Source of the DNA: an uncultured Dehalococcoidia bacterium
Lineage (GTDB): Bacteria > Chloroflexota > Dehalococcoidia > Tepidiformales > Tepidiformaceae
Length of the DNA stretch: 64,000 nt
Reading direction: 5' to 3'
Assembly: GCA_938015525.1 (NCBI GenBank)
Contig: CALLPC010000010.1
Span: forward strand, 1 to 64,000
Below the pieces are notes generated by a model, which was not told the DNA's origin, ran no database searches, and worked only from the letters and a program-made list of their open reading frames with translations. A program made the translations under genes and the position numbers. Within the stretch, counting starts at the first letter, position 1. Each line of letters begins with the position of its first letter. This document shows positions 60,796 through 63,704 of the stretch, in pieces.

Positions 60796-61545
60796 TCACC
60801 CGCCCAGCGGCCGCCGCTCCGGCACCCCCGGCCGCCGCGGGTAGCCCGCCGGGCACGGCGCCACCTTCCGGCAGACCGCCACCCGGACCGTCTCGCTCAC
60901 CTCCGGCCGCATCGGCACCACCCCTGCGAGCTCACACCCCAGCGCTCCCGCCGCCGACCCCGCCGCCGCCAGCTCCTCCTCCAGGCGGCTCCCCTTCGGC
61001 AGCGCGATGATCCCCCCAACCGCCGCCAGCGGCGCAGCGTACTCCAGCACCACCCGGAGCTCCGCCACCGCCCGCGCCGTCACCAGCCCGCATGCCTCCC
61101 GCAGCGGCCCCCGGCCCGCCTCCTCCGCCCGCATCGCGTGCACCCGCACGTTCCCGCAGCCCAGCTCCCGCGCCGCTGCCGCCAGGAACCGCGCGCGCTT
61201 CTGCAGCGGTTCCACCAGGTGCACCTCCCAGCCTGGCCGCGCGCACGCGACCACCAGCCCCGGCCAGCCCCCTCCGCTCCCGATATCCGCATACCGTACC
61301 TCCCCCTCCCCCGCCGCCAGGAACCCCTCCGCCAGCCGCAAAAGCTCCAGCGACTCCGCATACTGCCGCCGCACCGCCGCAGACCCTTCCACCGCCGTCA
61401 GCCGGCCTGCCTCCGGGCTCCCCCGCACCAGCTCCCAGTGGCGCGCCAGCCGCGGGACCGCCCGCAGCACCTCCGCATCGCCCGCGAACAGCTGCGCCAG
61501 CTCATCCCATTCACGCATCTCCGCAACCCCGGGCGACAAGAACAC
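60796..61545 (-). CDS. rsmG: 16S rRNA (guanine-N7)-methyltransferase RsmG
   Basis: 249 aa from GTG 61545; ATG 61518 is an alternative. AdoMet-binding block YADIGSGGGWPGLVVACARPGWEVHLVEPLQKRARFLAAAARELG and the RsmG signature LVTARAVAELRVVLEYAAPLAAVGG, PKGSRLEEELA. Methylates G527 of 16S rRNA. It is divergent from greA across a 23-bp gap in which the two -10 candidates overlap (TATCAC on this strand, TACACT on the other). Confidence 0.93.
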   Translation of the reverse strand: MFLSPGVAEMREWDELAQLFAGDAEVLRAVPRLARHWELVRGSPEAGRLTAVEGSAAVRRQYAESLELLRLAEGFLAAGEGEVRYADIGSGGGWPGLVVACARPGWEVHLVEPLQKRARFLAAAARELGCGNVRVHAMRAEEAGRGPLREACGLVTARAVAELRVVLEYAAPLAAVGGIIALPKGSRLEEELAAAGSAAGALGCELAGVVPMRPEVSETVRVAVCRKVAPCPAGYPRRPGVPERRPLGG

Positions 61546-61568: not shown

Positions 61569-62396
61569 ATGACGCAAACGCCTGCGGGCGCCCCTGCCAG
61601 GTCGGTCCCCCTCCGCGAAGCCCTCCGCGAATTCTCCGCCACCCTCAAGCCTCTCACCAACGACTACGCCAACTACGTCGAAAAATTCTGCATCGACGTC
61701 GGCCCCGAGCGGCTCACGTCAGAGCTCACCCCGGCCATCGTCGAACAGTACGGCGAACGCAACCTCCGCGCTACCGACCCCAACGGGCAGCGGCGCCTCG
61801 AGGCCCTCAAGGCCTGGTTCAAATTCCTCAAGGCCCGCACCTACACCGAAAAGAACCTCGGCACCGGTCTCCGCCTTCCCAGGCCCAACGGCCGCACCGC
61901 AGGTTCAGCTACCCGCGTCGTCGAGAGCCCCGTCGAAATGACCGCCGAAGGTATCGAAGCCCTCAAGCGGGAGATCGCCGACCTCGAGCGCCGCATCCCC
62001 GAGCTCGTCCGCGCCGTCGAGACCGCACGCTCCGACGGCGACCTCCGCGAAAACGCCCCCTACCACGCCGCCCGCGAGGCCCTCGCCTTCGCCGAAAACC
62101 GGCGCCGCCAGCTCGAAGAATCCCTCAAGCGCGCTGTCGTCGCCAACCGCTCCGACCTGGACGAAGACGTCGCCGCTATCGGCTCCGGCGTCACCGTCAC
62201 CCTCATCGAGCGGAACGTCCAGGTCACCTACCAGCTCGTCGGCCCGCGCGAAGCCAACCCCGCCGAGAAGAAAATCAGCGTCGAATCCCCCGTCGGCCGC
62301 GTCCTCCTCGGGCGCCGCGTCGGCGAAGAGGTCGAAGTCGAAGCCCCCCAGGGGCTCATCCGCTACCGCATCGACGCCATCATCCACGACCTCTAG
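61569..62396 (+). CDS. greA: Transcription elongation factor GreA with an extra N-terminal helical domain
   Basis: 275 aa, about 115 longer than ordinary GreA (about 158 aa). The C-terminal part (about 120-275) is complete: coiled-coil MTAEGIEALKREIADLERRI, tip ARSDGDLRENAPYHAARE with the acidic residues that act at the polymerase active site, and the FKBP-like domain VTVTLIERNVQVTYQLVG, SPVGRVLLGRRVGEEVEVEAP. The N-terminal extension (about 15-105) is helical, with LREFSATLKPLTNDYANYVEKF and RLEALKAWFKFLKAR, resembling the SAM-like core-binding domain of tyrosine recombinases. Leaderless start. Confidence 0.9.
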   Translation: MTQTPAGAPARSVPLREALREFSATLKPLTNDYANYVEKFCIDVGPERLTSELTPAIVEQYGERNLRATDPNGQRRLEALKAWFKFLKARTYTEKNLGTGLRLPRPNGRTAGSATRVVESPVEMTAEGIEALKREIADLERRIPELVRAVETARSDGDLRENAPYHAAREALAFAENRRRQLEESLKRAVVANRSDLDEDVAAIGSGVTVTLIERNVQVTYQLVGPREANPAEKKISVESPVGRVLLGRRVGEEVEVEAPQGLIRYRIDAIIHDL

Positions 62397-62531: not shown

Positions 62532-62810
62532 ATGCTCGTCATCGGCGACCTCAAGTGCCTCCACTGCGGCCACAGCAACGGCCGCTGGGTCGGCCCCAAG
62601 GGGGCGCCCCTCTCCGCCGCCGGCCTCCGTCCGCTCCCGCCCGGCTGCGACCCCGCCGGGCACGTCCGCTGCAGGCGCTGCCAGGGGCCCGTCTACCTCG
62701 ATGACGCCATGCCCGTCGCCAGCTCCTACCGCCTCCGCCGCATCCAGCGCATGCGCCGGCAGCTCGCCGCCTTCGATGCCCCGCGCCCGCGGCGCCGCCG
62801 CGCTGCCTGA
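62532..62810 (+). CDS. Small zinc-ribbon protein
   Basis: 92 aa. CLHCGHSNGRW and later CRRCQGPVYLDD give a Cys4 zinc ribbon separated by about 35 residues; a basic helical C-terminal tail follows (RLRRIQRMRRQLAAF ... RPRRRRAA). Probably nucleic-acid or protein binding. Preceded by GGGGGTGATG and by repeats related to the flagellar-promoter element. No known family recognised. Confidence 0.65.
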   Translation: MLVIGDLKCLHCGHSNGRWVGPKGAPLSAAGLRPLPPGCDPAGHVRCRRCQGPVYLDDAMPVASSYRLRRIQRMRRQLAAFDAPRPRRRRAA

Positions 62811-63314: not shown

Positions 63315-63704
63315 ATGCACCGCTTCCTGCGCCTCGCGCTCCTCGCCGTCGCCGTCGCCATCGCCGCCCTGGCCGTCACGGCCTGCGGAGGCTCCTCATC
63401 GAGCAGCGGCACCGCCGGCGTCGCCGATGGCACCGACGACCGCATCCCCGCGGGCGCACCGTTCATCGACCAGGACAAACTCCAGTTCGTCCCCCAGGCG
63501 CTCCGCGTCAAGGTCGGCGAAACCGTCTACTTCAAAAACAGCGAGACCGCCCTCCACACCGTCAACGTCGACGGCAAAAACGTCTCCGGCAACATGAAGA
63601 AGAACGACGTCTTCACCTGGGTCTTCCAGCAGCCCGGCAGCTACAAGATCACCTGCGACTACCACCCCCAGATGAAGGCCACCATCACCGTCGACCCGGC
63701 CTGA
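63315..63704 (+). CDS. Cupredoxin (plastocyanin-like) lipoprotein
   Basis: 129 aa. Signal peptide with lipobox VTAC (Cys24), a Ser/Gly linker, then a single blue-copper domain. All four type 1 copper ligands are visible: His81 in ALHTVNVDG and Cys114, His117, Met120 in CDYHPQM. A membrane-tethered electron carrier on the outer face of the cell. GGAGGA ribosome site 9-10 nt before the ATG. The redox partner is not in the window. Confidence 0.9.
   Translation: MHRFLRLALLAVAVAIAALAVTACGGSSSSSGTAGVADGTDDRIPAGAPFIDQDKLQFVPQALRVKVGETVYFKNSETALHTVNVDGKNVSGNMKKNDVFTWVFQQPGSYKITCDYHPQMKATITVDPA

Follow-up and report, generated by a model that had tools for sequence, protein, structure and literature searches.

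A GreA fused to a tyrosine-recombinase core-binding domain across the Dehalococcoidia

We describe a new, class-wide variant of GreA in which a core-binding (CB) domain of the tyrosine-recombinase type is joined through a linker to the N terminus of a complete GreA. We refer to this protein as CB-GreA. It is encoded in the window, the 64,000-nucleotide stretch of Dehalococcoidia DNA analyzed here. In fusion-bearing genomes, CB-GreA is the only Gre copy with an intact catalytic signature. That the free paralogue has passed the tip on to the fusion is the most surprising feature of the system. It was absent from the earlier note on this DNA, as was the class-wide spread; the note had the structure right and was careful about function. 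That note knew of no described example, and our search of the open-access literature likewise found no published description of a fusion of the CB-GreA type.

Architecture and ancestry of the fusion

The fusion open reading frame is confirmed as encoding a real two-part protein (Table 1). A chance fusion or an assembly artefact was ruled out by 132 non-redundant orthologues from independent assemblies. The N-terminal extension had initially been placed at 61569–61920, which corresponds to residues 1–117; better limits for the CB domain are residues 13–105. The linker that follows is 15–41 residues long across the fusion family (median 19, measured from position 105 to position 125). In the window protein, residues 107–118 have low AlphaFold confidence and are predicted to be disordered, and the mutual orientation of the CB and Gre domains is undefined in the full model (pTM 0.45).

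Table 1. Features of the CB-GreA gene and its divergent neighbour in the window.
Feature	Position	Strand	Basis
CB-GreA fusion gene, 275 aa + stop, ATG start	61569..62396	+	ORF; orthologues
Tyrosine-recombinase core-binding (CB, SAM-like) domain, residues 13–105, four-helix bundle	61605..61883	+	profiles, AlphaFold, Foldseek
Flexible linker, about residues 106–121	61884..61931	+	pLDDT <50 at 107–118
GreA N-terminal coiled coil, Pfam GreA_GreB_N, residues 122–191	61932..62141	+	Pfam; 1grj alignment
Catalytic tip D158-L-R-E161 = E. coli D41, E44	62040..62051	+	132/132 fusions
GreA C-terminal RNAP-binding domain, residues 199–271	62163..62381	+	Pfam
rsmG (GidB, PF02527), divergent neighbour of the fusion gene	60796..61545	-	ORF, Pfam

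The significant match of the N-terminal region to CB domains came from the family profile and not from the window sequence alone. In Pfam, residues 1–119 of the window protein gave nothing significant and did not reach the Phage_int_SAM gathering cut-offs; NCBIfam returned weak XerC/XerD matches to the N-terminal part (0.1), and a single-sequence PDB search with residues 1–110 returned chance matches to Argonaute and to designed repeat proteins and none to a CB domain. Across the family, TIGR02224 (XerC) was matched at E≤1 by 30 of 50 members, the best at 7.7e-6, and PF13495 at E≤1 by 6 of 50 homologues. A profile built from 50 N-domains matched PDB 3nrw, a phage-integrase/recombinase core-binding domain, at 1.6e-5, and profile–profile comparison of the N-domain with Xer core-binding domains gave a probability of 98% (P about 1e-12). 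When the N-domain profile was searched against all six frames of 13 whole genomes, the strong matches were fusions; the remainder were mostly frames of 300–385 aa, several of which coincided with Xer places found independently by PF02899. When Xer ORFs were searched among 3,988 other ORFs, each of the 31 best matches fell in a Xer locus, and the first decoy came after them at E=0.15.

Structure prediction pointed to the same family. AlphaFold produced a separate four-helix domain (helices at residues 15–25, 28–44, 55–65 and 73–89; pLDDT about 85–93), and the leading Foldseek matches of this CB model were all integrase core-binding domains (3lys, lambda Int and Tn1549 Int; TM about 0.6), with a prob of 0.99 and weak E-values, the best being 0.16. 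With the full model, Gre/Gfh1 and HelD entries came first and integrase domains after them. Pfam found no recombinase catalytic domain (R/H/R/Y) in the window protein, where GreA comes after the CB domain. Descent of residues 13–105 from a tyrosine-recombinase core-binding domain is thus supported. Both sequence profile and fold bear out the earlier proposal that the ~115 N-terminal residues are the SAM-like core-binding domain of such enzymes, and the profile and structure searches suggested with that proposal matched a DNA-binding fold.

Gre factors are textbook two-domain proteins, and Pfam recognized both domains in the window protein, GreA_GreB_N at residues 123–191 (8e-21) and the GreA_GreB C-terminal domain at residues 199–271 (2e-23). 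The NCBIfam model TIGR01462 (GreA) scored 141.8 bits against a cut-off of 139, and the protein was nearer to GreA than to Gfh1 (84 bits for 1grj vs 51 bits for Gfh1). Aligned against 1grj, D158 and E161 fall on D41 and E44 of E. coli GreA; together with N162 they are invariant in 50 aligned sequences and likewise in the 132 non-redundant fusions. The GreA part is therefore complete from about residue 120, tip included, as had been claimed. In E. coli GreA, D41 and E44 make contact with the catalytic Mg2+, and a D41A/E44Y variant does not rescue arrested complexes while retaining another activity (PMC7527559).

Alternatively, translation might begin internally, near residue 124, leaving the upstream frame untranslated and yielding a standard GreA as the mature protein. 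Of 50 homologues, 33 have ATG at codon 124. SD-like sequences occur at 26% of these codons, more often than at randomly chosen codons within genes (15%) and less often than at the proposed starts (41%). Against this, substitution patterns indicate that the N-domain is translated and under purifying selection. For residues 13–105, dN/dS was 0.14–0.16 against the two nearest relatives and about 0.37 against two further ones; within close pairs elsewhere it was 0.07–0.12, and over all close pairs the N-domain ranged from about 0.01 to 0.4. In one close pair of presumed Dehalococcoides orthologues, the CB domain had accumulated 27 synonymous changes vs 1 non-synonymous change. The upstream frame is open in 132 homologues, and 17 of the 50 that were aligned have Leu or Val in place of the internal Met. 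E. coli GreA also has a Met at the counterpart position (M6), so a Met at codon 124 is no sign of a start. The selection on the N-domain and the absence of the Met in 17 of 50 homologues lead us to reject the internal start as the source of the sole product, leaving it next to no probability, and contradict the idea, raised as a possible objection, that the extension is missing from the mature protein.

One published observation does fit an internal start. In the acetylome of D. mccartyi CBDB1, 'K17' of GreA (cbdbA743) was strongly acetylated, with the modification more pronounced in stationary phase (PMC7918482). In the presumed Dehalococcoides orthologues, residue 17 is Asn when counted from the upstream start and Lys when counted from the internal Met of 'PMTASGYKKLEDELSTLK'. 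Because K17 fits only the numbering from the internal Met, the D. mccartyi greA gene model has probably been annotated short, without its CB domain. Gene models begun at the internal Met, maybe including that of D. mccartyi, would conceal the CB domain.

Spread of the fusion and its catalytic tip

The closest records belong to Tepidiforma, the T. flava orthologue being 93% identical over its full length. With the protein as query, full-length fusions were recovered from 50 of 61 related genomes, mostly of the same family and class. A survey of Chloroflexota, which the earlier note had proposed, found the fusion in 57 of 60 genomes from this class with completeness of at least 85% (tallied by hand; missing in G224, G253 and G427) and in 33 of about 340 genomes of other classes, spanning about 15 families. 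In 31 of the 57 fusion-bearing genomes of the class, no Gre other than the fusion was matched at 1e-10. A quick Gre-domain tree placed the fused copies in two groups, with two changes of the fused/short label needed; the E. coli GreA sequence included in it sits on a long branch, and none of our conclusions depends on that sequence. The tree leaves room for a single origin of the fusion.

In phage and plasmid collections Gre genes were present, but none was a fusion with 80% coverage of the query, and a phage or mobile-element origin was rejected on this basis. PADLOC gave no match for the fusion, its neighbourhood is not conserved and it has no PIN or effector domains, and we therefore rejected membership of a defence system. 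The gene neighbourhood (rsmG, Yip1 upstream) is kept among close relatives only; read by eye, an rsmG-like ORF adjoins the fusion in some relatives too, and conservation stops further out. Downstream of the fusion, the window carries a small zinc-ribbon-like ORF at 62532–62810 (CLHCGHSN...CRRCQGP), with no Pfam match, and a cupredoxin-like secreted protein at 63315–63704 (PF13473), to which an ORF lying 3' of the fusion in relative L062 is similar.

The fusions and the short GreA copies found beside them differ sharply at the tip: the D41/E44 pair is kept in 132 of 132 fusions and in 0 of 68 short copies. Within the class, the short paralogues of all 43 genomes examined have lost the pair, D41 being kept in one and an acid at position 44 in three. 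In other classes none of the 25 short copies beside a fusion has it, and 18 of them read D/D, a conservative change. The short copy of the window genome has G-S-S-Q-A-D where an intact tip reads G-D-L-K-E-N. Among Chloroflexota without the fusion, D/E is kept in 13 of 18 Gre copies and four have E/E; the tip samples are best-scoring copies, which biases both sets towards intact tips. Since the D41/E44 tip is present in every fusion and in none of the short paralogues, the fusion looks like the cell's transcript-cleavage factor.

Gre domains are still recognisable in all short copies; L165 (G000:C6:192696-193172, minus strand) and 67 others each have both Gre domains and no D41/E44 pair. The short copies form a large uncharacterised group, distinct from Gfh1 and possibly cleavage-inactive. 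The inhibitory Gre paralogues Gfh1 and Rv3788, in which a non-cleaving Gre exists beside an active one, are a possible parallel (PMC4598747). Gfh1 retains the tip acids, however, whereas the short paralogues here are without the D/E pair and the fusion retains the GreA tip. Separately, one genome of the same class with no fusion detected (G042) carries a tandem pair of short Gre genes with D/D tips (L219, G042:C8:6900-8200) and a third short Gre gene elsewhere, with a G/E tip.

Possible roles of the CB domain

Our preferred reading, built on sequence and predicted structure, is that the CB domain would keep hold of DNA close to the elongation complex. The GreA part would bind the secondary-channel rim of RNA polymerase, and the D158/E161 tip would enter the active centre and stimulate cleavage of backtracked RNA; we propose a GreA-like cleavage action because the GreA domains and tip are fully conserved. 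A linker of ~19 residues would attach the CB domain, of the Xer/integrase type and cut from its catalytic domain, to the base of the Gre coiled coil on the outer side. There the CB domain would still hold nucleic acid, most likely duplex DNA beside the elongation complex, without strong sequence specificity. This hold would keep the cleavage factor on or near the transcribing polymerase, and such tethering would favour CB-GreA over the short GreA paralogue, with its altered tip, in competition for their shared binding site. We infer cleavage activity, its sole provision by the fusion, DNA binding, tethering and competition alike, and consider the explanation as a whole, CB-GreA as a DNA-tethered transcript-cleavage factor, to have an even chance of being right.

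In support of DNA binding, position 76 in helix 4 of the CB domain is Lys or Arg in 87% of fusions and 97% of Xer proteins, and position 81 in 100% and 94%, respectively; additional basic residues are conserved in the fusion CB domains at 39, 102, 104 and 105 (132 sequences). Averaged over the family, the CB domain has a charge of +3.9 and the Gre part of -3.7. XerH and Tn1549 Int contact DNA by placing their CB domains in the major groove (PMC5241119, PMC5871717), and plant ALOG proteins offer a precedent for a detached CB domain serving as a DNA-binding domain (PMC3537659).

Relative to Xer, the fusion CB domains have 7 residues deleted between helices 1 and 2, and position 75, an invariant Arg in Xer, is Lys or Arg in just 34% of fusions. 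Contacts with DNA may therefore be weakened or altered, and these same losses make a protein-docking role a serious rival. The CB fold would then have lost DNA binding and would recruit the cleavage factor through contacts with a protein partner: the jaw or clamp of RNA polymerase, another elongation factor or a repair factor. In eukaryotic TFIIS, the helical domain at the N terminus is generally regarded as a protein-docking module. The net charge of the window CB domain, just +4, and the weak Foldseek E-values are also in keeping with docking, but the strong conservation of Lys or Arg at all six basic positions, two of them common to Xer, and the opposite mean charges of the CB and Gre parts argue against it. 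On balance we regard docking as unlikely, though well worth taking seriously.

A direct role in sensing backtracking, with the CB domain gripping the RNA 3' end that is extruded through the secondary channel, or single-stranded nucleic acid, is improbable in our estimate. In Gre structures the N terminus sits outside that channel, at the coiled-coil base, and this is where backtracked transcript would be expected to emerge; the conserved basic tail at 102–105 and the basic linker would suit such a ligand. Recombinase CB domains, however, bind duplex DNA, and we know of no RNA-binding CB domain. Homology to XerC/D could also mean that the CB domain guides GreA to dif-like or attachment sites, tying cleavage to chromosome-dimer resolution or to a mobile element. 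This seems very improbable to us: no recombinase or mobile-element gene adjoins the fusion in the loci read, phage and plasmid collections yielded no fusion, and the sequence-reading loop is partly lost.

With the DNA-tethering reading in mind, we tentatively propose, at slightly less than even confidence, that GreA acquired the DNA-binding domain of a recombinase in an ancestor shared by the Dehalococcoidia and some of their sister lineages, and that it became the only cleavage-competent Gre. Free GreA would have become tip-altered, possibly inhibitory or regulatory, or been lost, with cleavage left to a DNA-tethered factor.

Relation to known systems and significance

CB-GreA has the same two Gre domains, D41/E44 tip and C-terminal RNAP-binding motif as bacterial GreA (E. 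coli 1grj; TIGR01462), but carries an extra N-terminal CB domain and linker of about 120 residues. With the CB domains of XerC/XerD, lambda Int, 3nrw and 3lys it shares the four-helix SAM-like fold and the helix-4 basic residues 76 and 81; unlike those proteins, it has no catalytic domain, shows the 7-residue helix 1–2 deletion and has mostly lost Arg75. A C-terminal Gre part within a longer protein is also found in NF011309/PRK14720 (906 positions) and NF004969/PRK06330 (718 positions, 'transcript cleavage factor/unknown domain fusion'), against which the fusion scored 90 and 58 bits (cut-offs 714 and 697), matching their Gre ends only. In the GreA/B-C conflict systems (TPR-GreA/B-C-PIN; PMC8195603) a Gre part is likewise joined to other domains, but these have the Gre C-terminal domain only, with effector domains and a defence context, whereas PADLOC did not match the fusion. 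Plant ALOG proteins similarly reuse an XerC/D-type N-terminal DNA-binding domain detached from its recombinase (PMC3537659), but they are eukaryotic developmental regulators and the fusion is an RNA-polymerase factor.

Nearly an entire bacterial class, hot-spring Chloroflexota included, thus appears to carry a rebuilt version of a basic transcription factor. In this class, which holds SAR202-type MAGs and apparently organohalide-respiring Dehalococcoides, the standard Gre seems to have been replaced and the old GreA freed of its tip. The system allows a direct test of whether DNA tethering of a cleavage factor alters the rescue of backtracked polymerase.
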